This document shows, in pieces, positions 9,836 to 26,311 of a DNA stretch of 64,000 nt. The notes under the pieces are model-generated. The model was not told the DNA's origin. It saw nothing but the letters and a program-made list of their open reading frames with translations, and ran no database searches. This stretch comes from Alphaproteobacteria bacterium. Lineage in GTDB: Bacteria; Pseudomonadota; Alphaproteobacteria; Micropepsales; Micropepsaceae. The stretch's first letter is position 1, and the number at the start of each line of letters is the position of its first letter. The position numbers and the translations under genes are program-made. The DNA lies in NCBI GenBank assembly GCA_016125165.1, contig WGMH01000001.1, positions 558,001-622,000 of the forward strand, in the 5' to 3' direction.

Positions 9836-9957
9836 GTCTTGCGCCGGCACAGGAAAACCATTGCGCCATAGTGCCTTGGCGCGATTAACGGGCTCCTAAC
9901 CCTCTCGCGGAGTCGTGCTTAACGCCGCCTTAATGCAATGCCTGCGACAAATGCACG

Positions 9958-11481: not shown

Positions 11482-13279
11482 GAGGCTGCGCTTTGGCTTC
11501 GGTTAGCGCATCCTTGAGATCAGCGGCGATACGCGACGGACCAAGCCCGTCAATCGTCATCAGTCCAGCCGCACGCATGTCGCGCCGGCGAGGCAAATCG
11601 GAAAGCAGCGCCCAGACGCTGCGCGCGATATCGCTGTCTTCCGCCCGCTCAATAGTACCAAGGCTGATACCCATTCCAGCCTGTTCGAATGCCGATGCGG
11701 ACAGTGCGTGGTCTTCTGTCAGGCACATGTAGATTGCCGGCACACCACACGATGCAAGCTCATAGGCGGTGACACCAAAGGCCGTCAAAGCGAGATCAGC
11801 AGAACCGAACTCCGTGGCGAGACCATCTGCGCCTTCCACCGTTTCAAAGTGAGAAGCGAGTTTCACGATGGCGCGTGCGACATTCGTGCGATCTGCCATG
11901 CCCGGCCCGATTACAAATCGCGCACGGAACAACGGATCAAGCGTACTGAGCGCACGCGCTGCGCGAAGCGTCAATCCCGCCGGATCGCTGCCGCCCATCG
12001 TGATCAACAAGGTCGGGCGGGGCATGGCACTGCGAACCGGCGCGTTTGTACGTGTGCAGCCTGTGAGGGACCATTGCCAACCGATACGCGGCACACAGAG
12101 CGAGCCCGACCAATCCAGATGTTCAACCTGTGGAACAGGCGGATAATAAGCGAGATTGGCAGCAAGGCGGCGATCCGAACCATCGTCAATTACCGCTATC
12201 AATTCAACTTCGCGGGAAAGCGCCTGAAGATCCGCCCGGCCTACGCCTTCACGCATGTCGCAGATCAGAAGATCAGGCGCGTGCGCGCCAATGGCGGACC
12301 TAAGCGTTTCGAAATCCGTTTCCGGCGTGGTAGCGATGATCTCAAATCCCGCGCGTGTGATCGGCACATGCGCATCATCCGACCCGTTCACGGCAAATAT
12401 CACGCCAACGCCTTCGCGGTCCCGTAATTCGCGCGCGAGAGACACCATGCGCTTGACGTGACCATAGCCATACTTGCCGCCACCGTCGCAGCGGATGAGC
12501 GCGAGGCTTTGCCGCGAGGCCAAGCGTTTCTGGGCAACGTGCGCATTGATTGCCCGAAGCTGTGGCTCGCGCTCCAGGAGCAACAAAAGGTCAGCGAGAG
12601 ACGCTTCTCCCGCTTTGGCATCGAGCCGGGCATGAACCGCCTCGACAAATGTCAGATCGTCGGGCGTGTCGATGGTGAGACGTCCGGCCTCCCGTGCCAA
12701 CGGCAGATACGCGGAGGCGCGCGCAAGACGCACAAAATCCGGGTGGAGTTTAAAATAGCCCGTGACATGCTCGCGCGCGACAGGGTCGTCAGCAGCATCC
12801 ATCATCAGCTTGTCAAGGGCGCGGCGTGTGAACGGGTCCACGCCCTCATGTGCTGTGACCGCACCTTCTTCCAGCAAGACATAGTCGCCATCCTGCTCCA
12901 GCAGCGCTGCGACAAGGTGATCGATGAAGGCGGCATCGAGAAACGGCGCATCGGACGATACCCGTACGATCACATCCGCATCGAGCAATTCCGCGGCGCG
13001 TGCAAAACGGGCAAGAACGTTATCTTCGGGGCCGCGTACAACCGGAACATCATTCTGTTTCGCCCATTCCACGATCGCGTCGTCACGCGGATTGGTGGAG
13101 GTGGCAATGGCGACCTCCTCGATGAAATGCGAGCGGCGCAGACGGTGCACGATATGCCAGAGCAAGGGTTGTCCGGCGACGGGTTTGAGAACTTTTCCAG
13201 GCAGGCGCGTGGATCCCATGCGCGCCTGAATGACAGCGACGATGCGCAGATGATCCGAGGGGGCTGGAGGTTGCATCAT
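11465..13279 (-). CDS. Fusion of SpsF-type cytidylyltransferase and PseG-type UDP-sugar hydrolase
   Basis: 604 residues, two enzymes in one chain. About residues 11-245 form an SpsF/NeuA-like cytidylyltransferase (VIQARMGSTRLPGKVL; RVSSDAPFLD), expected to make CMP-sugar. About 265-600 form a PseG-like domain with the glycine-histidine motif GYGHVKRMVSLA and the nucleotide site MGGSDPAGL. PseG splits UDP from an amino sugar before condensation with phosphoenolpyruvate. The gene follows the NeuB-like gene with a four-base overlap, so hydrolysis, condensation and CMP activation are encoded by two adjacent genes. Substrate (pseudaminic, legionaminic or another nonulosonic acid) cannot be read from the sequence. 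Confidence 0.88.
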   Translation of the reverse strand: MMQPPAPSDHLRIVAVIQARMGSTRLPGKVLKPVAGQPLLWHIVHRLRRSHFIEEVAIATSTNPRDDAIVEWAKQNDVPVVRGPEDNVLARFARAAELLDADVIVRVSSDAPFLDAAFIDHLVAALLEQDGDYVLLEEGAVTAHEGVDPFTRRALDKLMMDAADDPVAREHVTGYFKLHPDFVRLARASAYLPLAREAGRLTIDTPDDLTFVEAVHARLDAKAGEASLADLLLLLEREPQLRAINAHVAQKRLASRQSLALIRCDGGGKYGYGHVKRMVSLARELRDREGVGVIFAVNGSDDAHVPITRAGFEIIATTPETDFETLRSAIGAHAPDLLICDMREGVGRADLQALSREVELIAVIDDGSDRRLAANLAYYPPVPQVEHLDWSGSLCVPRIGWQWSLTGCTRTNAPVRSAMPRPTLLITMGGSDPAGLTLRAARALSTLDPLFRARFVIGPGMADRTNVARAIVKLASHFETVEGADGLATEFGSADLALTAFGVTAYELASCGVPAIYMCLTEDHALSASAFEQAGMGISLGTIERAEDSDIARSVWALLSDLPRRRDMRAAGLMTIDGLGPSRIAADLKDALTEAKAQPLKIAR

Positions 13280-14157
13280 GCTGCGGGCTTCCAGCGTGCG
13301 CGCACGTGGCGCAAGGGGCGCATGCCGTCCACAGGATCAGCACGCCATTCGCGATCCTCAGCCTCGCTGGCCTGCGGTTCCTTGAAACCCTCGCCATCGG
13401 CAGCAAGGCTTTCACGGATGCGGGCGATCACAGGGCCGATTTCTTCGGGCAGCCAGCAGTGGCCAGCGGCATATTCCGCGCCTTCTCCGTCCAGATCGAG
13501 GTGGAATTCCACCACATGCGCGCCCCAGTGGTGCACCGCGCGCTCGACCACAGATGGTTTTCGCGTGTGATCGGACCAGCCAACAGCACAACCTGTGGCT
13601 TTCGAAATGGCCGCAATGGCTGACAGGTTGGCTTCGCCGACTGGCGTGGGGTACGCGGATACGCAGTGCAGCAGCGCGATATCCTGACCACCTGAAGATT
13701 TCAGCGTGCGCACCGCGGCGACGATTTCCTCCATGATGGCCATGCCAGTGGAAAGCACGACAGGCTTGCCCGTTTCCGCACACGCCCGCAGCAGCGGACC
13801 AACGAGCAACTCGTAGGACGCGATCTTGTAGAAATCGACGAAGGGTTGAAGCTCTCGCACAGCTTCGAGATAAAACGGCGTGCAGGAAAACTGAATGCCC
13901 CGCGCGCGACAATGCGCCGCCAGCGGCTCCAGGTGATCCAACGGCAATTCCCATGCTTTGCGGGCCCGGTGCTTCTCAGAGAGTGCCAGAATTTCCGGCG
14001 CAAACATGCGATCGATCTTGAAGAGCTGAAACTTCACGGCATCGCAGCCGCAATCGGCGGCGGCATCTACAAATGCAAGAGCACGCGCCAGATCCTGCGC
14101 GTGGTTGCTGGAGGCTTCGGCGATGAAGAAGGGCCGGCGGGGCGGAAATTGCTGCAT
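13276..14157 (-). CDS. NeuB-family nonulosonic acid synthase lacking SAF domain
   Basis: 293 residues, an aldolase-type TIM barrel of the NeuB/PseI/LegI family: FIAEASSNHAQDLARA, CDAVKFQLFK, STGMAIMEEI, LLHCVSAYPTP and GWSDHT are all present. NeuB proteins are normally about 340-350 residues with a C-terminal SAF (antifreeze-like) domain; this one ends shortly after the barrel. The usual EKHFTLD segment reads VEFHLDLDG. It would condense phosphoenolpyruvate with a free amino sugar. The start ATG has a GGAG ribosome site. It is followed by the SpsF-PseG fusion (4-base overlap) and is divergent from the methyltransferase operon. Confidence 0.85.
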   Translation of the reverse strand: MQQFPPRRPFFIAEASSNHAQDLARALAFVDAAADCGCDAVKFQLFKIDRMFAPEILALSEKHRARKAWELPLDHLEPLAAHCRARGIQFSCTPFYLEAVRELQPFVDFYKIASYELLVGPLLRACAETGKPVVLSTGMAIMEEIVAAVRTLKSSGGQDIALLHCVSAYPTPVGEANLSAIAAISKATGCAVGWSDHTRKPSVVERAVHHWGAHVVEFHLDLDGEGAEYAAGHCWLPEEIGPVIARIRESLAADGEGFKEPQASEAEDREWRADPVDGMRPLRHVRARWKPAA

Positions 14158-14237: not shown

Positions 14238-15167
14238 ATGGGCATCGCCGCCGCCGAGACCGTGATTGCATGGCAAAGCCATGAAGGTTTGCGGATCACG
14301 CGCAAAAACGGGTTCGATATCATCGACTGCGCCATGTGCGGCTTCAAACATGTGGTGCCTCTGCCGGAGCCCGCAGAACTGGAACGCGAATACCGCGAGA
14401 GCTACTACCGCGATGAAAAGCCTACGTTTCTTTCGCACGCGGGAGAGGATCAGGCCTGGGCCGAGCTATCGCAAAGCGACCGGTTGGAATCCTTTGAGAA
14501 ATTGCTGCCGCCGAACCGCCGCCGGCTGCTGGATATCGGTTCTGGCCCCGGATTTTTCTTGAAGACTGCGCAGGCGCGCGGCTGGACAACTATGGGTATC
14601 GAACCTTCGGAGCAGGCCGCCGCCCATGCGCGAAGCTTGGGTCTTGAAATCGTTCAGGGCTTCTTCGGCGCCGATACCGCTTCTTCCCTGGGCCGGTTCG
14701 ATGCCATAAATCTGAACAATGTTCTGGAACATGTTCCCAATCCAACCGCCCTTCTGATCGCGGCCCGCGATCTTTTGGATGACGGCGGTATTCTGTGCGT
14801 GAACGTGCCCAATGACTTTTCGCCGTTTCAGATCGCGGCCAACGCTGGCGGCGCTACGCCGGAATGGTGGGTGGCCCCACCGCACCATCTCAACTATTTC
14901 GACTTCGACTCGCTATCTGGTCTGCTCGAACGGCTGGGGCTCTGGATCGCCGAACGCAGCACATCCTTTCCCATGGAAGCGTTCCTGCTCATGGGTGAGA
15001 ACTACACCGCCGATTCCGACCTGGGCCGCGCCTGCCACAACAAGCGCAAGAAATTCGATCTGGCGTGGGAAGCTGCCGGTTTGAGAGAAGCTCGCCGCGC
15101 CTTCTATCGCGCACTGGCCAGTGCCGGAATGGGCCGCGAAGCCATGGCCATCGGCATCAAGCCCTGA
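14238..15167 (+). CDS. Class I SAM-dependent methyltransferase (glycan cluster)
   Basis: 309 residues. A short Cys motif (CAMC at 31-34) precedes a Rossmann methyltransferase domain with motif I LLDIGSGPGFF at about 97-107 and the later segment LNNVLEHVPNP. This is the type found in capsule, O-antigen and flagellar glycan clusters (Methyltransf_23-like). The acceptor is unknown; a sugar or its nucleotide form is inferred from the neighbours. It is the first gene of the plus-strand operon that runs to 23031, divergent from neuB with 80 bases between the starts. Confidence 0.8.
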   Translation: MGIAAAETVIAWQSHEGLRITRKNGFDIIDCAMCGFKHVVPLPEPAELEREYRESYYRDEKPTFLSHAGEDQAWAELSQSDRLESFEKLLPPNRRRLLDIGSGPGFFLKTAQARGWTTMGIEPSEQAAAHARSLGLEIVQGFFGADTASSLGRFDAINLNNVLEHVPNPTALLIAARDLLDDGGILCVNVPNDFSPFQIAANAGGATPEWWVAPPHHLNYFDFDSLSGLLERLGLWIAERSTSFPMEAFLLMGENYTADSDLGRACHNKRKKFDLAWEAAGLREARRAFYRALASAGMGREAMAIGIKP

Positions 15168-15172
15168 CGCAA

Positions 15173-16009
15173 ATGAGCCAGAAAACTCAGGCTTTTTTCG
15201 TCGTCTCCAGCGGCCGCTCCGGCACCGCGATGCTGCACAAGGCGCTTTCGGCGGCCGGCAATGTCGAGATGCACCACGAATACATGGTTCATATTGTCCA
15301 GCCGCTGGCCGTGCGACGCTATATGGGCCTTTGTTCCCAGACCGAAGCCTGTGAGGTGCTGCGCTCCACGCACGTGGCCGCCGCGCATTACAGCCGCGCC
15401 GCGCATTGGGGCGACTCCTCCAACAAACTTTCCTGGCTGATCCCGGAAATCTCCGAGCTGATGCCCGAAGCGAAGTTCGTGCATCTGGTTCGCGACGGCC
15501 GCAAGGTCGCGGGGTCCTATTTCCGCAAGCTTGGCGCTGAATGCTACGACAACCAATCGACAGCGATCCTGGCCGCGCACATTGCCGATCCACGCAATGT
15601 CCCAGCGCCCCCGCCGGAAAAGCCCTATTGGTGGCCCCTGCCGCGCAGGGACGATCCCGTCGCGCGGGACTTCGTTCAGTTCGACCAGTTCGAGCGCATC
15701 ACCTGGCACTGGGCCGAAATCAACCGGGTGATCACGGAGGCTTTGGCCGCCCTGCCCGCAGCCAGAAAGCATTTCGTACATCTGGAAACGCTTCACGAAA
15801 ATCCAAATGCCGTTGAAGAGCTTTTACACTTTCTTAATCTTGATTACCGCGACGAGATCGGAGCGATGTTTGCCCGTCCCCACAACGTGAACCGCCCTGT
15901 AGACCAGCTGCTTGACGCCAGACAGCGCACCCAGTTTGATCAAATCGCAGGCGCGATGATGAAGTCGCTTGGCTATGCAGATTCTGCCGAGTACGTAGTG
16001 AATTATTAA
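15173..16009 (+). CDS. Sulfotransferase family protein
   Basis: 278 residues from ATG at 15173, five bases after the preceding stop; a longer upstream frame would overlap the methyltransferase. The N-terminus has the PAPS-binding loop SSGRSGTAML (about 12-21), and the region VHLVRDGRKVAGSYF matches the 3'-phosphate binding motif of sulfotransferases. The protein would transfer sulfate from PAPS, probably to a sugar hydroxyl given its place between two methyltransferase genes. No signal peptide or membrane anchor is seen, so it acts in the cytoplasm. The acceptor is not predictable. Confidence 0.8.
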   Translation: MSQKTQAFFVVSSGRSGTAMLHKALSAAGNVEMHHEYMVHIVQPLAVRRYMGLCSQTEACEVLRSTHVAAAHYSRAAHWGDSSNKLSWLIPEISELMPEAKFVHLVRDGRKVAGSYFRKLGAECYDNQSTAILAAHIADPRNVPAPPPEKPYWWPLPRRDDPVARDFVQFDQFERITWHWAEINRVITEALAALPAARKHFVHLETLHENPNAVEELLHFLNLDYRDEIGAMFARPHNVNRPVDQLLDARQRTQFDQIAGAMMKSLGYADSAEYVVNY

Positions 16010-16056
16010 GCACGACGCTCCGAAGATGGTTACCGGACTATTCCCGGAACATCTGC

Positions 16057-17229
16057 ATGGCCAACCTTTGTGAACTTTGCTTTCGCGACGCGCTCGAACT
16101 TGCCTATCAACCCGAAAGCTCCACGCGCGGCCTGACCGTGCACGTGTGTCAGCATTGCGGGCTTGTTCAGAGTCTGCCGCGCATCGATCGTGCCACGCGC
16201 GCACCCGCTGCTGTTTCTGGCGGTGCGGATTGGGGCAATGTGCGTTATGGCAAAGGATTCCGTACCCAGGCCGCAATTGCTGCACTGAAGCGCCATGCCA
16301 ATCTCGAATCTGCGCTGAAGGTACTGGACGTTGGTTCCAATCGCGGCAGCTTCGCGCGCACCTTTCTGGATCTGGCGCCGAATGCTGAACTCACTGCGGT
16401 CGAGCCGGATGAACGCGTCGCAGCCTATAGCGCCGGACTGGAGCGCACACGTCTGATTGAGTCGCGCATCGAAGACGCCGTTCTGGGAAATGAGGCGTAC
16501 GACGTCGTGCATTCCTGCCATACGGCGGAACACCTGGGCGATCCGCTGATGGTGTTTGCCGATCATTGGCGCGTTCTGAAACCGGGCGGCATTCTGCTGG
16601 TGGATGTGCCGAATATCGCACTGCTCGATTCCGACGACATTCTCGAGGAATGGTTCATCGACAAGCATCTCTACCATTTCTCGGCACGCACGCTGATGCG
16701 CATGGTTGCGGCGGCAGGGTTTGAAACCATTTGTCCGCCCGACGCCACGGATCGCGAAAACCTCTTGCTGGTGGCGCGCAAGTCTGGCGTCGCTCACCGC
16801 GCGGTTGAGGGCGATCAGCGTGAAGTGGATGAAGCCGAACGCCTGATTGCCACATATGTTTCCACGCGGGCGCGCAATCTGATGGCGCTCACGGCTGCGG
16901 CAGCGGAGATTTCCAGCTACGCGCCGCGCAAGGTCGCTATGTGGGGTGCCGGACGATTGTTTGATAGCCTTGTCACTCATGGCGGCTTTCAGCCCGCCGG
17001 GCTTTCGCTTTTGATCGACAAGCATCTGAAGGCGCACATGACGACTCGCCATGGCGCGCCGCTCGCTGGCCCGGAAGCCCTGCGCGACACCAGCCCCGAT
17101 GTTCTTGTGGTGATGTCACGTGGATTTTCCAGCGAAATCGTGAGCGAGGCCAAAACGCTCGCTCCGCACGCGGAGATCATTCTTTACGGCGATCTTCTCA
17201 AGCGCGCCCGCAAGGCACAGGCGGCATAA
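16057..17229 (+). CDS. SAM methyltransferase with N-terminal zinc ribbon and C-terminal Rossmann domain
   Basis: 390 residues. Cys5, Cys8, Cys31 and Cys34 form a zinc-ribbon pair like that of sugar C-methyltransferases. A methyltransferase domain follows (VLDVGSNRGSFA at about 89-100; SCHTAEHLGDP), then a C-terminal third (VAMWGAGRLFDSLV) resembling the C-methyltransferase C-terminal domain. This three-part plan matches the family of TylC3/NovU-type sugar C-methyltransferases, so carbon methylation of a nucleotide sugar is possible. It is 47 bases after the sulfotransferase gene and two bases before the transketolase gene. Confidence 0.8.
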   Translation: MANLCELCFRDALELAYQPESSTRGLTVHVCQHCGLVQSLPRIDRATRAPAAVSGGADWGNVRYGKGFRTQAAIAALKRHANLESALKVLDVGSNRGSFARTFLDLAPNAELTAVEPDERVAAYSAGLERTRLIESRIEDAVLGNEAYDVVHSCHTAEHLGDPLMVFADHWRVLKPGGILLVDVPNIALLDSDDILEEWFIDKHLYHFSARTLMRMVAAAGFETICPPDATDRENLLLVARKSGVAHRAVEGDQREVDEAERLIATYVSTRARNLMALTAAAAEISSYAPRKVAMWGAGRLFDSLVTHGGFQPAGLSLLIDKHLKAHMTTRHGAPLAGPEALRDTSPDVLVVMSRGFSSEIVSEAKTLAPHAEIILYGDLLKRARKAQAA

Positions 17230-17231
17230 CC

Positions 17232-18128
17232 ATGACCGATACGGCGAAAATTATTGTCGGCGAAAATCCCTCGGATCTCGCTAAAGATCTTGCGGTGGCC
17301 GCAGCGTTCACGCGCAAACACGCCATTGCTTCCATATATCATGCCGGCTCGGGTCATCCTGGCGGCGCCATGTCCAGTGCGGACATTCTTGCCTGCCTTT
17401 TCGGTGCGGAAATGAACTTCTGGCCCGATCAGATCCACGATCCACAACGCGACCGCTTCGTCCTTTCAAAGGGTCACGGCGCTCCCGCGCTCTATGCCAT
17501 TGCGGCGCATCATGGCTTTTGCGGCATCAAGGACTCCCTGCGTTTGCGCAAACTGAACAGCCCCTTCCAAGGGCATCCGCATGTTCTCGATCTGCCCTGG
17601 GTTGAAACCAGCACGGGATCGCTTGGTCAAGGCATTTCGGTTGCGCTGGGTATGGCGATGGGCCTCAAACTTCAGAAGAATCCCGCACGCGTCTACACGC
17701 TGCTGGGCGATGGCGAATTGCAGGAAGGCGAGGTTTGGGAAGCGGCCATGTGCGCGGCCCATCACCGGCTCGACAATCTTTGCGCGATCATCGACTACAA
17801 CAAGCTGCAAAGCGACAATTCAAACGAAGTCATCATGCGACTGGAACCGCTGGCCGCAAAGTTCCGCGCGTTCGATTGGGCTGTTGCCGAGGTGGACGGC
17901 CACGACATCGTTGAGCTGCTTTCCGCGTTCCGTCGTGCATCCGCCACCCATGGCCGGCCCGCGGTCGTCATTGCACACACGATCAAGGGCAAAGGCGTTC
18001 CCTACATGGAAAACATTCCAACGTGGCATGGCAGCGTGAAGCTCACGCGCGAACAGGCCGAAGATGCACTGGCGGCGCTCGGCGCTGACGGCAGTGAAAT
18101 CAGGGAGCTTCTCGACCATGGCCAGTGA
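17232..18128 (+). CDS. Transketolase, N-terminal subunit
   Basis: 298 residues, equal to the N-terminal (thiamine diphosphate-binding) part of transketolase. GSGHPGGAMSSADILA and the cofactor motif GDGELQEGEVWEA...DYNKLQSD are clear. It overlaps the C-terminal subunit gene by 11 bases, so the pair makes a split transketolase. The enzyme moves two-carbon ketol units between sugars. Location inside a glycan operon, rather than with pentose phosphate genes, suggests that it builds or cuts a special sugar skeleton; this is inference. Confidence 0.92.
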   Translation: MTDTAKIIVGENPSDLAKDLAVAAAFTRKHAIASIYHAGSGHPGGAMSSADILACLFGAEMNFWPDQIHDPQRDRFVLSKGHGAPALYAIAAHHGFCGIKDSLRLRKLNSPFQGHPHVLDLPWVETSTGSLGQGISVALGMAMGLKLQKNPARVYTLLGDGELQEGEVWEAAMCAAHHRLDNLCAIIDYNKLQSDNSNEVIMRLEPLAAKFRAFDWAVAEVDGHDIVELLSAFRRASATHGRPAVVIAHTIKGKGVPYMENIPTWHGSVKLTREQAEDALAALGADGSEIRELLDHGQ

Positions 18129-19089
18129 CGCCCCAGCCCTGATTGCCACAAGCGGCGATTCCCTGCGCGAAGCCTTCGGCAAGGCGCTTTCGGCGCTCGC
18201 CGACGAATTTCCGAAGGTCGTCGTGCTGGATGCCGATATCGCCGGCGGAACTGGCGTGCATCATTTCCGCAAGTCGCATCCCGAACGCTTCCTGCAATTC
18301 GGCATCGCCGAGCAGAACATGATGGCAGCCGCAGGCGGGCTCGCGGCGGTCGGTCACATCCCGATCGTCACGACATTTGCGGTGTTCTGTCTTCGCGCCA
18401 TAGAGCAGGCGCGCCTTTCACTTTGCTATGCGCGGCGCAACGCCAAGATTGTTGCGAGTCATCCCGGGATCGACGTTGGACCGGATGGTGGTTCCGCGCA
18501 GGCGCTGGAGGATCTCGCGGCCTTTCGTGCGATACCGGGCATGACCGTGATTTCGCCTGCCGACCCCTTGGAGATGGCACAGGCGACCCGCGCCATTCTG
18601 GAATTCGATGGGCCGGTTTATATGCGCACTGGCCGCAGCCCGGCGCGGCGGCTATTCGGCGAAGATCATGTGTTCAAGATCGGCAAGGGCAACATCCTGC
18701 GCGATGGGTGCGATGTGACCATCGTCGCCTGTGGCGTAGAAGTGGCGCGCGCGATGGATGCGGCAGAGCTGCTGGCCGGCGAAGGCATCTCTGCACGCGT
18801 CGTAAACATGGCAACAATCAAGCCAATCGATGCGGAATTGCTGGCCCGTTGCGCTGAGGAAACCGGCGCCATCGTGACAGCAGAGGACCATAACATTTTC
18901 GGAGGCCTTGGCGGCGCCGTCGCGGAATCATTGGTTTCGACCCGCCCCTGCCCGGTGGAATTCGTGGGCTTGCAGGATACATTCGGTGCATCAGGCGAAC
19001 CGGATGAGCTGGCCGATGCTTTTGGCATCAGCGCGCCGCACATCGCGGCGGCGGCCAGACGCGCCATCACGCGGAAGGCCGCGCAATGA
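18118..19089 (+). CDS. Transketolase, C-terminal subunit
   Basis: 323 residues from ATG at 18118, inside the end of the preceding gene. It has the pyrimidine-binding domain (FLQFGIAEQNMMAAAGGLA, with the catalytic glutamate of GIAEQN), a GPDGGSAQALEDL segment typical of two-subunit transketolases and DXS-like enzymes, and the C-terminal transketolase domain (about 200-323). It works with the 17232-18128 product. The next gene overlaps by four bases (ATGA). Confidence 0.92.
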   Translation: MASDAPALIATSGDSLREAFGKALSALADEFPKVVVLDADIAGGTGVHHFRKSHPERFLQFGIAEQNMMAAAGGLAAVGHIPIVTTFAVFCLRAIEQARLSLCYARRNAKIVASHPGIDVGPDGGSAQALEDLAAFRAIPGMTVISPADPLEMAQATRAILEFDGPVYMRTGRSPARRLFGEDHVFKIGKGNILRDGCDVTIVACGVEVARAMDAAELLAGEGISARVVNMATIKPIDAELLARCAEETGAIVTAEDHNIFGGLGGAVAESLVSTRPCPVEFVGLQDTFGASGEPDELADAFGISAPHIAAAARRAITRKAAQ

Positions 19090-19844
19090 CCAATCGCTTT
19101 TCTCTCTCTGGAAAGTCGGCATACGTGACAGGCGGCAGCCGCGGTATTGGCAGGGCTATCGCAATCGGTATGGCGGAAGCCGGTGCGGATGTTGCTCTTT
19201 CCTATCGTTCGCGGCGTGACGAAGGCGAAGCTGTCGCAGACACGATCCGCAAGATGGGCCGCCGCGCGGTCGCTATTCAGATGGACGTGACAGATCGCGC
19301 CAGCGTGGAAGCCGCCGCGCGGGACGCACGAGGCACGCTTGGACCCATCAGTGTTCTTGTGAACAATGCAGGCATCAACAAACCGACGGATTTCGACCAG
19401 GTGGATGATGCAGACTGGGACGAGATTCTCGCGGCCAATCTGAAAGGCCCCTTCATATGCGCACAGGTTTTTCTGCCGCTGCTGAAGGAATCCGGCGGCG
19501 GAAGCATTGTTCATATCGGTTCGGTCAGCGGGCAATATGGCGGCCCACGAACGGCACACTATGCCGCCTCGAAGGCAGGGTTGATCTCGCTGGCACAAGT
19601 AATCGCGCGCTTCGGCGCGCCGAACAACATTCGCTCGAATGTGGTGGCTGCAGGCCTGATCGCCTCGGAAATGGCGGCGGCGGGCATGGCGGCGGCGAGC
19701 GTACAGAAAGCGGCAGACACCATTCTGCTGAAGCGATTGGGCGCACAGAGCGAAGTGGCGGATGCGGTCGTGTTTCTGGCGTCTGACGCTTCTGGCTACA
19801 TCACCGCGCAAACTCTCAACGTAAATGGCGGGCTCTACTTCTGA
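19086..19844 (+). CDS. SDR-family oxidoreductase
   Basis: 252 residues, a classical short-chain dehydrogenase. The cofactor motif TGGSRGIG is at about 11-18, NNAG at about 91-94, and the catalytic Ser/Tyr/Lys appear in GSVSGQYGG and YAASK. It is similar in form to FabG-type ketoreductases, but the operon suggests oxidation or reduction of a sugar intermediate, as for PtmA in Campylobacter flagellar clusters. Start and stop overlap both neighbours by one to four bases, so it is translated with the transketolase and ATP-grasp proteins. Confidence 0.88.
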   Translation: MTNRFSLSGKSAYVTGGSRGIGRAIAIGMAEAGADVALSYRSRRDEGEAVADTIRKMGRRAVAIQMDVTDRASVEAAARDARGTLGPISVLVNNAGINKPTDFDQVDDADWDEILAANLKGPFICAQVFLPLLKESGGGSIVHIGSVSGQYGGPRTAHYAASKAGLISLAQVIARFGAPNNIRSNVVAAGLIASEMAAAGMAAASVQKAADTILLKRLGAQSEVADAVVFLASDASGYITAQTLNVNGGLYF

Positions 19845-21061
19845 TGCAGAAAACCTTGCTCATCGTATCAGGCGGCATCGAGGCAGCAGACGCAGCGCGG
19901 CGCGCCAAGGAGATGGGACTGTACGTCGTCGTCTCCGATCTCGATCCCAATGCCCCCGGATTCACACATGCCGACTCTTGCCTTATCGCCGACGTTTACG
20001 GTCCTGAACAGACGGCGGCCGCAGCCGAACGCTTTCATCGGAAAATCCGCAAGATCGATGGCGTGATTTGCGTGGCGGCTGACGCACCCATGACCACGGC
20101 AACGGTGAGCGAACGGCTGGGGCTTCCCGGCATCAGCACGCACACCGCGCGGCTTGCATCGGACAAACTCGCCATGAAGCAGCGGTTTGCCGAATGCGGC
20201 GTTCCCGTTCCGTGGTTCAGCGAGGTCGAAACACCTCAGGCGCTATCGCGCATTGCCATCGAACGTGGCCACGATTTGGTGATCAAGCCGGTGGACAGCC
20301 GCGGCAGCCGTGGCGTGCAACGCGTGGCACAGGTGGCCGATCTGACCAAGGCCTTCTTTCTTGCCCGCAATCATTCTCCCAGCGAGCGTGTGATGGTGGA
20401 GCAATATCTGGAAGGCCCGCAGGTCTCCACCGAATCGCTGGTGGTGAATGGCGAATGCCACACGCTAGGCTTCTCGGATCGCAACTACGAATATCTTGAG
20501 CGTTACGCGCCCTTCTTCATTGAAAATGGCGGCGATCTGCCCAGTCACCTTTCCGGTGGCATTCAGGACAAAGTGAGAGCCGTTGTTGCGCAGGCTACCA
20601 GGGCGCTCGGCATCACCAATGGCACGGTCAAGGGTGATATTGTCGTGCACAGGGGCGAAGCCTTTGTGATCGAGCTGGCGGCGCGTCTGTCCGGCGGCTT
20701 TTTCTGCACCCGCGAAATTCCGCTCAATACTGGCGTCGATTTCGTCGGGGCGGCGATCCGCATCGCGCTGGGTGAAAGCGTCCCGCTTGAAGATCTGCAA
20801 CCGAAATCGCAGGTACCCGTCATCCAGCGTTACGCTTTCCCGACTCCGGGACGTGTGATTTCCGTCGAAGGCGCAGAAGAAGCGCGCAAGGTTCCTGGCG
20901 TCGCTGAAGTGATTGTGACGGCGCGGCCTGGCGACATCATTCCCGCAGCCGGTGACAAGCGTCCCTCCGCAGCCATGGTTCTGGCCACGGGCGCCTCACG
21001 CGAGCAGGCGCTCGCCGCCGCCAATGATGCGCTTGGCCATTTGAAGATTGAAACCGCATGA
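19844..21061 (+). CDS. ATP-grasp domain protein (CarB/PurK-like ligase)
   Basis: 405 residues. An N-terminal Rossmann-like pre-ATP-grasp part (LLIVSGGIEAADAARRAKE) is followed by an ATP-grasp fold (about 115-300) with a lysine/glycine loop (LVIKPVDSRGSRGVQRV), MVEQYLEGPQVS and the metal-site segment FVIELAARLSGGF. The family makes an acyl-phosphate and joins it to an amine or similar group. Such genes are frequent in flagellar and capsular sugar clusters, but no substrate is established here. Its ATG overlaps the SDR stop (TGATG), and its end overlaps the GH57-like gene by four bases. Confidence 0.85.
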   Translation: MQKTLLIVSGGIEAADAARRAKEMGLYVVVSDLDPNAPGFTHADSCLIADVYGPEQTAAAAERFHRKIRKIDGVICVAADAPMTTATVSERLGLPGISTHTARLASDKLAMKQRFAECGVPVPWFSEVETPQALSRIAIERGHDLVIKPVDSRGSRGVQRVAQVADLTKAFFLARNHSPSERVMVEQYLEGPQVSTESLVVNGECHTLGFSDRNYEYLERYAPFFIENGGDLPSHLSGGIQDKVRAVVAQATRALGITNGTVKGDIVVHRGEAFVIELAARLSGGFFCTREIPLNTGVDFVGAAIRIALGESVPLEDLQPKSQVPVIQRYAFPTPGRVISVEGAEEARKVPGVAEVIVTARPGDIIPAAGDKRPSAAMVLATGASREQALAAANDALGHLKIETA

Positions 21062-23031
21062 ATGCCCCACTCCGCGCGTACGAGCTGCAGGCCCAGGCCG
21101 GCACGCTTCATCTCTATGCCCTGTTTCACTTGAACCTCGCATTTTCATCCATCGAGGAAGCGCGGCGTGGTGAGGTGATTGCGAAGAGTTATTGGCCCAT
21201 GCTCGATCTGGCACAGGACTTCGGCCCTATTGGCGTCGAGCTGACCGGCTACACGCTGGAGGAAATCTTCGCACGCGATCCGGAATGGGTAGGACGATTC
21301 CGCGCGCTGATCGCGAGCGGAAATATCGAACTGATCGGTTCTGGTTACGCGCAGCTCATCGGCCCCCTTGTGCCCGCGAAGGTCAACCGCGAAAATCTGA
21401 AGATTGGAAACGGCGTCTACGAAAAACTTCTCGGCACCCGTCCGACCATTGCCCTCGTGAATGAGCAGGCGTATGGCGCAGGCTTGGTGCCACTCTATGC
21501 TGATGCCGGATACCGCGCCATTCTAATGGATTGGGAAAATGCAGGCGCCCTGCATACCGAATGGCCCCGCGAAACGCGCTTCCTGCCGCAAAGGGCCGTG
21601 GGGCCCGATGGATCAAGCATCGGCCTTCTTTGGACCAGCACCGTTGCCTTTCAGAAGCTTCAACGTCTCGCGCACGGCGATATGCCGCTCGAGGAATATC
21701 TGAACTTCGTACGCGCACAGCGCGGAGACGAATCGCGAGCGGTTTGCCTCTATGCAAATGACGCGGAAATCTTCGACTTTCGGCCAGGCCGATACAAGAC
21801 AGAGGAAGCAATCGCGCAGGAAAGCGAATGGTCCCGCATTCGCGCCGCATTCGTATCTCTCAAGGAAGAACCTTCAGCCAGGCTTTGTGCTCCGAGCGAA
21901 GTGCTGTCTCTCATCGAACACCGTCAAGCCGGCCAGCCTCTTCGACTTGAAGCTGCCGCCTGCCCCGTTCCGGTCAAGAAGCAGCGAAAGTACAGCCTGT
22001 CACGCTGGGCCGTTACCGGCCGGGACGACATCGGGATCAATGCGGCATGTCAGAGAATCTATGAGGGTTTGATAGCGCGGAACGCAGATGAGAGCGCCTG
22101 GAAAGAGCTTTGCTATCTATGGTCCAGCGATTTTCGCACACACATCACCAACGCGCGCTGGAACGCCTTTTGTGCGCGTCTGCGGAATGTGGAGGAGCAT
22201 TGGGCGCCATCGCCCCCGCTCTTCGTGAGCGATGCAGGTTCGACAGATGAAACCGCGCGGCATATTGACATCACGACTCCTGCCTTGAACGCCCGCCTCG
22301 ACCGTCGCCGCGGCCTCGCGATTGATGCGCTGCGCTTGCCCGGTCACAAGCAAGCGATCATTGGCGGTCTACCCCACGGACACTTCGATGACATATCGCT
22401 GCAAGCCGACTGGTATACTGGCGACTGCGTGTTCGAAGCGCCCGGAGAGCACAAGATCACCGATCTGGAATGGGCACATACGAGGGTACGCAGCAGCGAC
22501 AATGGAGACGTCGTGGTCTATGCCGCCATCGCCACACCGCGCGGTAACATCGAAAAGATCATGCGATTCAGCGCAGACAGCGCCCGAATCGAATTCGACA
22601 TCGTATTTCTTTGGGATGAAATTCCACGCGGCTCATTGCGACTTGGCCACATCACGTTGAAACCGGAAGCCTTCGATTGGGACAAGCTGTCCTTTGCCAC
22701 GCACAATGGCGGCGAACATGTCGAGCGATTCGCATTGAAGGATCAGACGGTCGAACATGGGCAGCCTGTATCGTTCCTCGTTTCCTGTGCGCACGGTTTC
22801 GGCATGACCGAAGGAGTTGCGGAAATCGGTGACGACAGGACTCGCGTTCGTGTTGAAGTGGATCGCGCCTCTGCACCATTGCTGGGGCTTGTTACGCACC
22901 GCCGGACTGGCGGAAGTCTATTCTGCCAGCTCGTTCTGTCAGCATCTGAGCTGGACGAGACGCGAAAGCCCTCGGCCTACAGGAATGACCCCAGACGCTT
23001 CCGATTTGCGGTCGAAATTCTGAAATCGTGA
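21058..23031 (+). CDS. Glycoside hydrolase family 57-like protein
   Basis: 657 residues. The N-terminal half resembles the GH57 (beta/alpha)7 barrel (LYALFHLNLAFSSIEE; GVELTGYTLEEIF; IELIGSGYAQLIGPL). ALVNEQAYGAG holds a glutamate in the position expected for the nucleophile. The C-terminal half (about 400-657) looks like the beta-sandwich of GH57 amylases or 4-glucanotransferases. No signal peptide is present, so it acts in the cytoplasm. It is the last gene of the operon and ends at a strong two-way terminator. A glycogen role is possible, but operon position points to the flagellar glycan. Confidence 0.75.
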   Translation: MNAPLRAYELQAQAGTLHLYALFHLNLAFSSIEEARRGEVIAKSYWPMLDLAQDFGPIGVELTGYTLEEIFARDPEWVGRFRALIASGNIELIGSGYAQLIGPLVPAKVNRENLKIGNGVYEKLLGTRPTIALVNEQAYGAGLVPLYADAGYRAILMDWENAGALHTEWPRETRFLPQRAVGPDGSSIGLLWTSTVAFQKLQRLAHGDMPLEEYLNFVRAQRGDESRAVCLYANDAEIFDFRPGRYKTEEAIAQESEWSRIRAAFVSLKEEPSARLCAPSEVLSLIEHRQAGQPLRLEAAACPVPVKKQRKYSLSRWAVTGRDDIGINAACQRIYEGLIARNADESAWKELCYLWSSDFRTHITNARWNAFCARLRNVEEHWAPSPPLFVSDAGSTDETARHIDITTPALNARLDRRRGLAIDALRLPGHKQAIIGGLPHGHFDDISLQADWYTGDCVFEAPGEHKITDLEWAHTRVRSSDNGDVVVYAAIATPRGNIEKIMRFSADSARIEFDIVFLWDEIPRGSLRLGHITLKPEAFDWDKLSFATHNGGEHVERFALKDQTVEHGQPVSFLVSCAHGFGMTEGVAEIGDDRTRVRVEVDRASAPLLGLVTHRRTGGSLFCQLVLSASELDETRKPSAYRNDPRRFRFAVEILKS

Positions 23032-23209: not shown

Positions 23210-24034
23210 TTACCGGAAGAGCGAGAGCGTGATGGACGGCGCCGAATTCGCGATGGACAGCGCCTGAACACCCAGCTGCTGCTTGACCTGCAACGACTGG
23301 AGCAGTGCGCTTTCTTTCGCCATATCGGCATCGACCAGGTTGCCGATACCCTTGGTGAGGGTGTCGGAGAGCTTGCCTACAAAGTCGGCCTGGATCGAGA
23401 ACTTCTTCGCGCCGGCAGCGAGGCGGCCAAGAGCCGCGTTCACGTTCTGCAACGAAGCGGTGATCGTTGCCACCATCGTAGACGCCTTGGCGGCCGTGGA
23501 AATCACGCCCGTGGACTTCACGGTCACGATCGAGCCCGACAGCTTCAGGTTTTCGTCCTGCACGGTGATGCGGCGCGAACCATCGGCAGACGCCAGCGCC
23601 GTGATCTTCGCCGTGGTGTTGTTCACCAGGTTATAGTTGTTGAACACGGCGTTGGTCACGACCGTGGTGATCTGGTCGCGCAGCGCCTTGAAGTCTTCGT
23701 TGAGGGCCTGACGGCTCGCCGTATCGAGGGAAGCGTCAGAGGCGGCCAGCGCCTTCTGCTTCATTTCGATGAGCAGATCCGAAATCGAGTTGCCGGCCGA
23801 GACCGCGACGTCGATGGTGGAGATGCCGCGATTCAAGCTGTCGGTGACCGACTCGTAGGCCGCAACGTCACCGCGCATGTTTTGCGCGATGGCGAAGGTA
23901 GCGCCGTTGTCTTTCGCCGAGGAAACCTTCAGGCCGGTGTTGATGGCGGTCTGGACAGTGGACAGCTGCGAGTTGGTGGAATTGAGGTACTGAAGGGCCA
24001 CCATCGCGCCGTTATTGGTATTCACGCTAAGCAT
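23210..24034 (-). CDS. Flagellin (copy 1)
   Basis: 274 residues from ATG at 24034, which has GGAGG six bases upstream; the open frame runs further but without a ribosome site. N-terminal MLSVNTNNGAMVALQYLN and C-terminal LQSLQVKQQLGVQALSIAN are the conserved helices that form the filament core. The variable middle is short, as in other small alphaproteobacterial flagellins. It aligns without gaps with the second flagellin at 24355-25179. Export is by the flagellar type III system, so no signal peptide is present. Ser/Thr residues in the middle (about 130-210) are likely glycosylation targets for the TPR glycosyltransferases. Confidence 0.97.
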   Translation of the reverse strand: MLSVNTNNGAMVALQYLNSTNSQLSTVQTAINTGLKVSSAKDNGATFAIAQNMRGDVAAYESVTDSLNRGISTIDVAVSAGNSISDLLIEMKQKALAASDASLDTASRQALNEDFKALRDQITTVVTNAVFNNYNLVNNTTAKITALASADGSRRITVQDENLKLSGSIVTVKSTGVISTAAKASTMVATITASLQNVNAALGRLAAGAKKFSIQADFVGKLSDTLTKGIGNLVDADMAKESALLQSLQVKQQLGVQALSIANSAPSITLSLFR

Positions 24035-24094
24035 TTCTGCCTCCGTTCTGGTCTCATGATCACGAGCGTTATGCTCTTGGGACGTTTTGTCCCG
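24035..24094 (-). promoter_or_regulatory. Structured 5' leader of flagellin 1
   Basis: Between the predicted transcription start (about 24094) and the ATG lie two small hairpins: GGGAC-loop-GTCCC at 24079-24093, at the very 5' end, and GAGC-loop-GCTC at 24064-24076. The decamer ACCAGAACGG (24043-24052, minus strand) is shared with the other flagellin leader. FlbT is known in Caulobacter to act on a flagellin leader, so this is a plausible FlbT target. Confidence 0.5.
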
Positions 24095-24099
24095 AGGAC

Positions 24100-24122
24100 C
24101 TAAAGGCAATGAACGTGCCGCG
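24100..24122 (-). promoter_or_regulatory. Sigma-54-type promoter of flagellin 1
   Basis: The minus strand reads CGGCACGTTCATTGCC: GG at 24119-24118, ten bases, GC at 24107-24106. Both halves match GGCACG and TTGC. Predicted start is near 24094, giving a leader of about 60 bases. Confidence 0.8.
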
Positions 24123-24354: not shown

Positions 24355-25179
24355 TTAGCGGAACAGCGAGAGAATGACCTGCGGCGCCTGATTGGCAATG
24401 GACAGGGCCTGCACGCCGAGCTGTTGCTTGACCTGCAACGACTGCAGTTTCGCGCTTTCGACTGCCATGTCGGCATCCACCAGATGACCGATACCCGAAG
24501 ACAGGGTGTCGGACAGTTTCTGGACGAATTCCGCCTGAATCGAATATTTTTTAGCCCCCGAGGACAGACGCGCCAGCGCGCTGTTCACGTTGGTCAGCGA
24601 AGACTGAATTGTCGCGATCATGGTCGACGCCTTGGCTTGCGTCGAGATCGAGCCGGTGGACTTGACCGTAACGATCGAGCCAGACAGCTTCATGTTTTCC
24701 GAATTCACCGTGATGCGCCGCGTGCCATCGGCAGAAGCGAGTGCGGTGATCTTCGTCGTTGTACCGTCCACGAGGTTGTAGTTGTTGAAGACAGCGTTAT
24801 TCACGATCGTGGTAATCTGATCGCGAAGCGCCTTGAAGTCTTCATTCAACGCCTGGCGGCTCGCCGTATCCAGTGACTGGTCGGATGCGGAAAGTGCCTT
24901 CTGCTTCATTTCGACGAGCAGATCCGAGATCGACTGCCCCGCGGAGAGGGCGACATCGATCGAAGACATGCCGCGATTGAGGCTATCCGTGACGGCCTGG
25001 TAGCCGGCAACATTACCACGCATGGTCTGCGCAATGGCAAAGGTCGCGCCGTCGTCTTTGGCGGACGCGACCTTCAGTCCCGTGTTGATGGCGTTCTGCG
25101 TGGACTGAAGTTGGCCAGCGGTGTCGTTGAGATACTGCAGCGCGATCATCGCGCCGGAGTTGGTATTGACGCTAAGCAT
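24355..25179 (-). CDS. Flagellin (copy 2)
   Basis: 274 residues from ATG at 25179 with GGAGA seven bases upstream. Same length as copy 1 and colinear throughout, with identical stretches such as ALNEDFKALRDQITT and KLSGSIVTVKSTG; differences are scattered substitutions, so the pair is an old tandem duplication rather than a recent copy. It forms part of the filament. It has its own leader, promoter-like site and terminator, so the two flagellins can be expressed separately. The terminator downstream of flaF insulates it from the flbT-flaF unit. Confidence 0.97.
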   Translation of the reverse strand: MLSVNTNSGAMIALQYLNDTAGQLQSTQNAINTGLKVASAKDDGATFAIAQTMRGNVAGYQAVTDSLNRGMSSIDVALSAGQSISDLLVEMKQKALSASDQSLDTASRQALNEDFKALRDQITTIVNNAVFNNYNLVDGTTTKITALASADGTRRITVNSENMKLSGSIVTVKSTGSISTQAKASTMIATIQSSLTNVNSALARLSSGAKKYSIQAEFVQKLSDTLSSGIGHLVDADMAVESAKLQSLQVKQQLGVQALSIANQAPQVILSLFR

Positions 25180-25244
25180 AAGAGTTCTCCATCCCGTTCT
25201 GGTGGCCTGACGGCCTTCTGCACGTCCGGGGCCCGATTGCCCCA
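25180..25244 (-). promoter_or_regulatory. Structured 5' leader of flagellin 2
   Basis: About 65 bases with strong pairing: CTGGTGG with CCACCAG across most of the leader, and an inner GGGGC/GCCCC stem. The decamer ACCAGAACGG (25194-25203, minus strand) recurs from the flagellin 1 leader, 14 bases before the ATG. Probable site for post-transcriptional control by FlbT/FlaF. Confidence 0.5.
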
Positions 25245-25253
25245 CCAGCCCAT

Positions 25254-25434: not shown

Positions 25435-25785
25435 TTAAGCCGCGCCGCGCAGACCTTCCATGATCGTGCGGTTAACTTCGATCAGCGGATCAATTGAAGC
25501 ACCCTCGCGCGATACCTGTTTGGAATAGCGTGTGACCCACAGCGACAGCGATACGATCTGCGCGCGCACCTGTTCGGGCAGACGGTTACGCTCGTCCATG
25601 CAGTCCACGGCGAGAGTGCGCCACAGCTTGCGGTTCCAATCTAGCGCTTCCACCAGCGGGCCGCCGCGGGCGCCATTCTTGCTGACGTCGAGAAGCGCGC
25701 CGGTGACCTGACCGAACAGACGGTATTCAGTATCCCGCGGGTTCTCAGTAATTCGCTGCGTGTTTTGATACGCCGTGTGCGCCAT
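25435..25785 (-). CDS. flaF: Flagellar biosynthesis regulator FlaF
   Basis: 116 residues with the family start AYQNTQRITENPRDTEYRLFGQVT. FlaF is needed for flagellin production in alphaproteobacteria and acts with FlbT on flagellin synthesis or secretion. The start ATG at 25785 lies 41 bases inside the flbT reading frame; there is no later in-frame ATG that would keep the conserved N-terminus, so the overlap appears real. The gene ends just before a strong terminator. Confidence 0.93.
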   Translation of the reverse strand: MAHTAYQNTQRITENPRDTEYRLFGQVTGALLDVSKNGARGGPLVEALDWNRKLWRTLAVDCMDERNRLPEQVRAQIVSLSLWVTRYSKQVSREGASIDPLIEVNRTIMEGLRGAA

Positions 25786-26170
25786 AACTCAAACGCTCCT
25801 GTTCAAACTCGAATAGCTTCTTGCAGTTCATCAGCGCGCGATAGTAGCCCCCGCTCATGACGTCGCGGCTGATTTCGATGCAGGTTGTCAACGCTTCCTT
25901 GCTGGCAATCGCGCCCATGAACTCGGTCATGCGCAAGGCGAAGTCGTTGTAGAATTGTTCACCGTCTTCCGGTTCCAGATACATCATCATGATCGGGAAA
26001 TAGATGCGTCGGGCGGGCGTGGTCGCATCCTCCGGCTGCATGATATCCTTCTCGCGCAGCACGCAGGCTTTGTTCTGGATAACCAGACTGGTGCGTTTGT
26101 CACCATTGGTCAGGACCGCGCCATTCAGCACGAATTTCTCGCCGGGCTTCAAAGAAAGCTTGAGCGGCAT
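25745..26170 (-). CDS. flbT: Flagellin translation regulator FlbT
   Basis: 141 residues, usual FlbT length, beginning PLKLSLKPGEKFVLNGAV with the family segments RIYFPIMMMYLEP and YYRALMNCKKLFEFE. In Caulobacter FlbT lowers the stability of flagellin mRNA by acting on its 5' leader until the hook is complete. Target leaders are next door at 24035-24094 and 25180-25244. The ATG has GGAGAAACCT just upstream. Transcription is divergent from the FlmG-like gene; no sigma-54 site was found in the 141 bases between them. Confidence 0.95.
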   Translation of the reverse strand: MPLKLSLKPGEKFVLNGAVLTNGDKRTSLVIQNKACVLREKDIMQPEDATTPARRIYFPIMMMYLEPEDGEQFYNDFALRMTEFMGAIASKEALTTCIEISRDVMSGGYYRALMNCKKLFEFEQERLSYGAHGVSKHAANY

Positions 26171-26311
26171 AGGTTTCTCCTTCGCGCGGCGGCCATGCCT
26201 TCACAGCCCTGCCCTGCGCGTCTGGACCCCGACGCTAGCGCGCAATGCTTAACAAAGACCTTGCGCCTTGAAACAAGTTCTTCACGCAAGATTAAGCATG
26301 AGAGCCGTTCT

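Follow-up and report, generated by a model that had tools for sequence, protein, structure and literature searches.

The 64,000-nt window (the whole stretch of DNA analysed here, to which all plain position numbers refer) lies in contig C2 of a 3.04 Mb alphaproteobacterial draft genome (G000). It contains, beside flagellin genes, a run of eight plus-strand genes at 14238-23031, identified from the open reading frame (ORF) listing together with Pfam and NCBIfam matches. The run includes two S-adenosylmethionine methyltransferase genes, MT1 (14238-15167; PF13489, 85 bits) and MT2 (16057-17229; PF13489, 61 bits), on either side of a sulfotransferase gene (ST, 15173-16009; PF13469, 49 bits) whose ORF opens at 15065 and whose start was taken at 15173. 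A transketolase split into an N half (TKN, 17232-18128; PF00456, 170 bits) and a C half (TKC, 18118-19089; PF02779, 140 bits; PF02780, 116 bits) follows, and then a short-chain dehydrogenase/reductase (SDR, 19086-19844; PF13561, 198 bits), an ATP-grasp ligase of the L-amino-acid-ligase type (19844-21061; C domain PF18603, 67 bits; PDB relatives 4DIM and 3VOT) and a GH57 protein with conserved Glu136 and Asp235 (21058-23031; PF03065, 54 bits; structure model). With the TKC start set at 18118, the successive overlaps among the last five genes are 11, 4, 1 and 4 bases. An earlier note on this DNA had described eight such genes, the last five overlapping by 1-11 bases, located between NeuB and SpsF-PseG genes and the flagellins; the gene count, the overlaps, the placement and the enzyme classes it named are all borne out.

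Two minus-strand genes adjoin the run on its left. The nearer encodes a short NeuB of 293 aa, a likely nonulosonate synthase (13276-14157; PF03102, 208 bits; PseI, 175 bits, below the cut-off of 340), and the next an SpsF-PseG fusion combining a CMP-sugar transferase with a UDP-sugar hydrolase-like domain (11465-13279; PF02348, 107 bits; PseG model TIGR03590, 99 bits, below the cut-off of 153.55). Beyond these lies plus-strand FlmG1 (9958-11481), a likely flagellin glycosyltransferase. Pfam detects only tetratricopeptide repeats (TPR) in FlmG1, while its predicted structure (pLDDT 92.1) combines TPRs in one half with a GT9-like fold in the other, residues 222-507 of the model matching the GT9 structure 3TOV (Z 18.8, root-mean-square deviation (rmsd) 3.4, 267 aligned residues). 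To the right are two minus-strand flagellin genes (23210-24109; PF00669, 94 bits; PF00700, 41 bits; and 24355-25245; PF00669, 98 bits; PF00700, 49 bits), FlaF (25435-25785, minus; PF07309, 112 bits), FlbT (25745-26170, minus; PF07378, 153 bits) and FlmG2 (25955-28120, plus), an ORF with Pfam TPR matches only that is glycosyltransferase-like by its similarity to FlmG1 (30% identity). As judged from the model, FlmG1 has the TPR plus GT-B architecture of the FlmG type.

The arrangement recurs across the order to which the genome belongs. Of 96 genomes from the order, 67 have a GH57 relative, this one included, and from these 67 we chose 30 loci for long contigs and a spread of identity, such that the presence of GH57 in all 30 is by choice. 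The gene order in these loci is nearly fixed: SpsF/PseG, NeuB, (MT1), (ST), (MT2), TKN, TKC, SDR, ATP-grasp, GH57, flagellin. SDR and ATP-grasp genes each occur in 29 of the 30, NeuB in 28, each transketolase half in 27, SpsF-PseG in 26, and PseB and PseC in 23 each. The lower counts for ST (20), MT1 (18) and MT2 (22-23) mark the methyltransferase and sulfotransferase genes as variable decoration. Exceptions to the order are L058 (acetolactate-synthase-like (ALS-like) enzyme), L067 (GH57 with PseB/PseC only) and L068 (short contig). Given the GH57 relatives in 67 of 96 genomes and the near-fixed gene order, the arrangement is not due to chance. It is well supported that the locus is a flagellin-glycan cluster of the sialic-acid type that forms one conserved unit in this order, as the earlier note had supposed.

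The window itself holds no 4,6-dehydratase or aminotransferase gene, as previously stated. This does not extend to the genome, where PseB (C8:673465; 512 bits, cut-off 407.75) adjoins PseC (C8:672285; 454 bits, cut-off 423.5) outside the window. PseB and PseC are both located between GH57 and the flagellins in 21 of the 30 order loci. The in-cluster PseC proteins are only 38-44% identical to that of the window's genome; L057, the one in-cluster relative checked against curated cut-offs, has a PseC that passes (460 against 423.5). The sugar thus looks like the standard pseudaminic-acid precursor, and full replacement of the Pse pathway is ruled out by the presence of PseB and PseC in the genome. 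Of the two options left by the earlier note, a different way to build or to modify the sugar, modification of a standard sugar is therefore the more likely. PseB itself is found in 103 of 387 alphaproteobacterial genomes.

An ATP-grasp alignment scan of named genomes revealed module-like loci in many phyla. We confirmed 147 and analysed the best 80, each centred on the ATP-grasp gene and partly overlapping the order loci; L157, for instance, is the cluster of Rhizomicrobium electricum DSM 21034. Within these best 80 of 147, the transketolase pair is present in 39, an ALS-like enzyme in 25, neither in 16 and both in none, with some of the 'neither' loci truncated by contig ends. The mutual exclusion is significant both overall (Fisher p 3e-10) and outside Alphaproteobacteria (p 2e-4), kinship being ignored in both values. 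On a quick ATP-grasp tree, the label changes nine times by parsimony when 'neither' rows are left out (labels were assigned over the whole stretch for the 80-locus count and within 6.5 kb for the tree), and transketolase-bearing Desulfuromonas CSMB_57 falls with two ALS-bearing Pelobacter genomes in one clade with an SH-aLRT support of 100. The exchange is also seen close to home: the same-genus locus L058 combines an ALS-like thiamine diphosphate (TPP) enzyme (518 bits to TIGR00118, cut-off 538), SDR, ATP-grasp and NeuB genes, next to FlmG2, GH57 and PseB/PseC.

Further occupants of this slot were found. In L222 it holds a DXS-like protein that exceeds the DXS cut-offs and is possibly a true DXS. 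In L223 (3253-6439, genome G692), a split pair resembling phosphonopyruvate or sulfopyruvate decarboxylase, under the family cut-offs, lies directly beside ATP-grasp and GH57 genes, accompanied by an iron alcohol dehydrogenase and a long NeuB, with no transketolase or SDR; we take this gene set to resemble the step order of phosphonate synthesis, with NeuB as the first enzyme. L144 (3983-9215, Desulfobulbaceae) contains a sulfotransferase, a fructose-6-phosphate-aldolase family protein, a B12-radical-SAM protein, an SDR and ATP-grasp, followed by GH57. These swaps suggest a single role for the slot, formation of a C-C bond in a small acid, with a chain outcome that would vary with the enzyme.

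GH57 lies on the same strand as ATP-grasp in 56 of the 58 named loci that have both. Outside Alphaproteobacteria, NeuB, SpsF/PseG, PseB or PseC is present in the fetched stretch of 36 of 50 loci (21 of the 27 long ones), GH57 in 33, flagellin in eight and PseB in six. The refuting condition of the earlier note, homologues mostly in loci without flagellar or sialic-acid-type genes, thus gives a mixed outcome, and the module goes with nonulosonic-acid genes rather than with flagella alone. A full module is carried by the Solidesulfovibrio carbinolicus plasmid pDCAR1 (L219, NZ_CP026539.1), which encodes a NeuB family protein, pseF, an acylneuraminate cytidylyltransferase (PseG-like), a methyltransferase, fabG, both transketolase halves, a further methyltransferase, ATP-grasp, a glycoside hydrolase, pseB and pseC. 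Carriage on a plasmid might allow the module to pass from one phylum to another. No acetyltransferase appears in the pDCAR1 gene table, which can be incomplete, and no match to the PseH profile described below was obtained.

PseH, the acetyltransferase, is the one Pse-pathway enzyme for which the window locus gives no match. A seed PseH profile was built from five PseH-like proteins near PseB, picked by TIGR03585, and applied at E<1e-3 to PseB neighbourhoods of 35 non-module alphaproteobacterial loci, of which the five seed loci were excluded to leave 30, and of five module loci from other alphaproteobacterial families (L211 and L213 are short, and L213 shows no PseB). The non-module loci provide a contrast in gene content: module ATP-grasp, GH57 and transketolase genes occur in none of the 35, ALS-like genes in two and SDR genes in six. 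The profile matched near PseB in 14 of the 30 ordinary loci, compared to none of the five module loci of other families, none of the 30 order loci and none of the 80 named loci. PseB lies within the stretch in 4, 23 and 23 of these three module sets, respectively. TIGR03585 itself returned nothing over its cut-off in any of 11 genomes, although the model exceeds that cut-off in only 2 of the 80 PseB-positive genomes taken for this check (from the 103, with at least one per family).

The NeuB encoded in the window, the single NeuB match in the draft genome, is shortened: its matches stop before the SAF (antifreeze) domain. In the Caulobacter enzyme, the antifreeze-domain residue R322 is essential (PMC7591256). 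NeuB proteins of non-module loci run 34-71 aa longer, and all 22 of the 35 such loci that have NeuB carry the long type. Among the order loci, 28 have NeuB and 27 of these show the short type, L069 being truncated where the stretch ends. NeuB is likewise short in most of the 46 named loci that encode it; the exceptions are L084, L085, L086 and L156 (long), L124 and L143 (both types) and L132 (long extension). A sample of 397 genomes across the phylum yielded five short-NeuB matches, including that of the present genome. On pDCAR1, PseB, PseC and PseF score over their cut-offs, while PseG (99.6 against 153.55) and NeuB scored as PseI (174.5 against 340.25) fall below; the window's PseG domain (99) and NeuB (175) score almost identically. 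These two divergent enzymes are the ones that would have to handle a sugar with a changed acyl group. The length comparison describes a NeuB subtype that has no antifreeze domain and accompanies the module.

The transketolase N, pyrimidine-binding and C domains all score over their cut-offs in TKN plus TKC, and both halves are closest in sequence to the split transketolase of Carboxydothermus hydrogenoformans (E 1e-83 to 6YAK and 1e-92 to 6YAJ). At the aligned site that we take to be equivalent to E. coli transketolase H473, the window's enzyme has Ala, as do 64 of the 69 aligned module copies, the other five having His; human transketolase, in a separate alignment, has Gln there. Four further sites were presumed to bind the substrate phosphate. 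Loss of these sites was considered but is not supported, with three of the four kept in 69/69 copies. Sequence comparison therefore suggests a changed substrate, which could still be a phosphorylated one. A housekeeping role for the enzyme is unlikely, as transketolase N matches also occur elsewhere in the genome (C14:54469, C4:1 and C4:26398). Two of these, C14:54469 and C4:1-606, probably represent the housekeeping transketolase, seemingly a single gene split over contig ends. The third (C4:26398-27129, L004/L227) is the N half of another split transketolase; an aminotransferase gene and a methyltransferase-like gene lie nearby, and the surroundings are apparently another surface-sugar cluster. 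We found no paper linking transketolase to flagellin or pseudaminic-acid synthesis in the open-licence PMC literature; two papers there contain both terms, and the one consulted has them in unconnected passages.

The GH57 model (pLDDT 92.8) matches the Thermococcus litoralis 4-alpha-glucanotransferase (1K1W/1K1X) over its full-length fold with the catalytic Glu and Asp aligned, but at only 13-14% identity. The match to 1K1X has Z 30.7 over 513 aligned residues with an rmsd of 15.9, probably because two domains shift; a comparison to the GH57 enzyme 7E1Y gives Z 27.8 and an rmsd of 3.0 over 354 residues. Of the 83 relatives aligned, 81 have the catalytic Glu (the other two show gaps) and all have the Asp. 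GH57 belongs to the unit, and our default guess is hydrolysis of an alpha-glycoside or a transfer step.

We propose that the operon is the acyl-cap part of the flagellin nonulosonic-acid pathway, where it would replace PseH acetylation, and we give this an even chance of being right. The gene content, its conservation, the presence of PseB and PseC, the slot exchange and the lack of PseH-like matches at these loci are observed, while the acyl product, the amide linkage and the role of the short NeuB are inferred. By family, PseB and PseC, whose genes lie outside the window, would make the standard UDP-4-amino sugar. In place of acetylation, the split transketolase would combine an aldehyde acid with a two-carbon ketol unit, the SDR would reduce the resulting ketone, the methyltransferases (and the sulfotransferase) may decorate the chain, and the ATP-grasp enzyme would link the hydroxy acid to the free amine of the sugar. 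The PseG-like domain, the short NeuB and the SpsF domain would presumably lead on to the CMP-nonulosonate, which FlmG would transfer to flagellin. The missing SAF lid of NeuB may give room for a bulky acyl group. More tentatively, and with a probability we place at about one in three, the unit could be one form of a portable acyl-cap module of nonulosonic acids found across many phyla. Such a module would have a core of short NeuB, ATP-grasp and GH57, together with a reductase and an exchangeable C-C-forming slot (split transketolase, ALS-like, DXS-like, split phosphonopyruvate-decarboxylase-like or fructose-6-phosphate-aldolase family), and would make chain-length variants of a polyhydroxy-acyl group placed where PseH puts acetyl.

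The closest experimental counterpart is the sfmABCDE operon of Shewanella oneidensis (PMC3765264). The operon encodes a 290-aa NeuB-domain protein, a 581-aa TPP enzyme annotated as ilvB, an SDR, a methyltransferase and an ATP-grasp protein, in an organism described as having PseB and PseC but lacking clear PseH, PseG, PseI and PseF orthologs. The core of its flagellin glycan is a nonulosonic acid of 274 Da that contains two nitrogens and a single N-acetyl group and was assigned as pseudaminic-type; the outer part is C9H16O7, C10H18O7 or C11H20O7 (236-264 Da), has O-methyl groups and was judged nitrogen-free. Deletion of any of sfmA-E shifts flagellin on gels, those of sfmA-D to the unmodified size (PMC3765264). 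These findings fit an acyl group on a free amine.

Several observations weigh against the acyl-cap proposal. The sfmE (ATP-grasp) deletion is the mildest, with cells that swim, filaments that are kept and a slightly smaller shift, while the TPP-enzyme and methyltransferase deletions lose filaments and the sfmC (SDR) mutant keeps a visible filament (PMC3765264). These unequal phenotypes fit poorly with a simple chain ending in a ligase, for which the mutants should look alike. The 236-264 Da part is also readily lost in the mass-spectrometer source (PMC3765264), a behaviour that looks glycosidic rather than amide, unless the group leaves as a lactone. Among the module loci, L112 and L125 have NeuB, SpsF-PseG, ATP-grasp and GH57 without a TPP enzyme or SDR. 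In the transketolase, the three retained putative phosphate sites are Arg, His and Arg in 69/69 copies, with Gly (66) or Ala (3) at the fourth. The pattern of PseG and PseI scores below cut-off was read from module loci alone. As for PseH, the difference between 0/5 and 14/30 is not significant alone (Fisher p 0.069), the further sets of 30 and 80 contain loci that are akin or that overlap, PseB lies in the stretch of just 50 of all 115, the PseH-like set is broadly GNAT, and the absence is local to the loci. TIGR03585, over its cut-off in so few PseB-positive genomes, is a poor detector and was not counted as evidence of absence.

The transketolase and SDR could instead build the sugar backbone itself, yielding a new nonulosonic or ulosonic acid that is extended by NeuB, in line with the earlier note's suggestion of another way to build the sugar. 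An unusual NeuB without the SAF domain would suit this, as would the rarity of PseB outside Alphaproteobacteria (6 of 50 loci), which makes other precursors possible there, and the flagellin of unmodified size seen for the Shewanella NeuB, TPP-enzyme, SDR and methyltransferase deletions. We nevertheless hold backbone synthesis to be unlikely: PseB and PseC exceed their cut-offs in the genome and are in-cluster in 21 of 30 relatives, the 274 Da Shewanella core is assigned as pseudaminic-type, and L112 and L125 keep NeuB, SpsF-PseG, ATP-grasp and GH57 without TPP enzyme or SDR. Equally unlikely in our estimate is a scheme in which the ATP-grasp ligase attaches an amino acid or an amine once the sugar is complete, for example at the carboxylate, while transketolase and SDR make a second sugar of the glycan. 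The L-amino-acid-ligase C domain PF18603 is compatible with such coupling, and so are the filaments left by the Shewanella ATP-grasp deletion, the easy loss of the outer moiety in mass spectrometry and the PIG-L deacetylase and formyltransferase genes of L057 and L061, by which N-groups may be tailored in various ways. This scheme is opposed by the added Shewanella moiety being judged nitrogen-free, and by the overlapping or adjoining ATP-grasp, SDR and TPP-enzyme genes in the window and most compared loci.

As no more than 8 of the 50 loci from outside Alphaproteobacteria have a flagellin gene, the unit might also serve another surface polysaccharide and lie beside the flagellins by linkage only. 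This is quite improbable: in the present order and in the alphaproteobacterial family f161, FlmG-like genes flank the unit on one side and flagellin genes on the other, and a Shewanella operon of like make-up modifies flagellin.

Some further observations concern the loci themselves. In L057 (6795-8416) and L061, the PIG-L-type deacetylase and formyltransferase genes are inserted between ATP-grasp and GH57, suggesting that N-acetyl is swapped for N-formyl on the sugar. At 7097-9850 of the window, the minus strand encodes a 917-aa protein whose sole Pfam match is to SBBP beta-propeller repeats, with relatives at the same position in many order loci; an FlgL label for this gene was dropped, since Pfam gives the repeats only. 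A sigma-54 promoter scan was uninformative, with 104 matches against 93.35 expected.

The glycan of Treponema denticola flagellin is said, in work of Kurniyati in 2017, to be a nonulosonic acid carrying a 2-methoxy-trihydroxyhexanoyl group (274 + 176 Da). The difference between 236 and 176 Da would be C2H4O2, one two-carbon ketol unit, although this is only suggestive. A novel 450.2 Da flagellin glycan of this species is needed for filament assembly (PMC9481697). Should the acyl-cap proposal be correct, it would explain the bulky groups on flagellar nonulosonic acids (the 236-264 Da part in Shewanella and perhaps the 176 Da group in Treponema) by an enzyme sequence of carboligase, reductase, methyltransferase and ATP-grasp ligase. 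It would furthermore provide a genomic rule to predict non-acetyl nonulosonic acids, whose pathways would look incomplete in annotation.

The earlier note had suggested a new pathway, but the candidate is not wholly new: sfmABCDE is a close functional precedent (PMC3765264). Compared by domains and lengths only, both systems bring together a short NeuB, an SDR, a methyltransferase and an ATP-grasp protein, and both genomes have PseB and PseC, with no PseH match at the window locus. In contrast, the sfm TPP enzyme is a single chain of the ilvB type rather than a split transketolase, the GH57, sulfotransferase and SpsF-PseG of the window are not described for the sfm operon, and the candidate transferases are Maf proteins in S. 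oneidensis and FlmG here. We do not count the window module as a member of the sfm type, given the different thiamine enzyme and the extra genes. The Caulobacter crescentus Flm pathway (FlmA, B, H, D, NeuB, FlmC and FlmG; PMC7591256) has PseB, PseC, PseG-like, NeuB, cytidylyltransferase and TPR plus GT-B transferase functions in common with that of the window, and FlmG1 shares, as far as its predicted model shows, the architecture described for Caulobacter FlmG. The two differ in that Caulobacter has the FlmH acetyltransferase, reported as redundant there, and a NeuB with the antifreeze domain that the window NeuB is without (PMC7591256), whereas the transketolase, SDR, ATP-grasp and GH57 genes are additional in the window.

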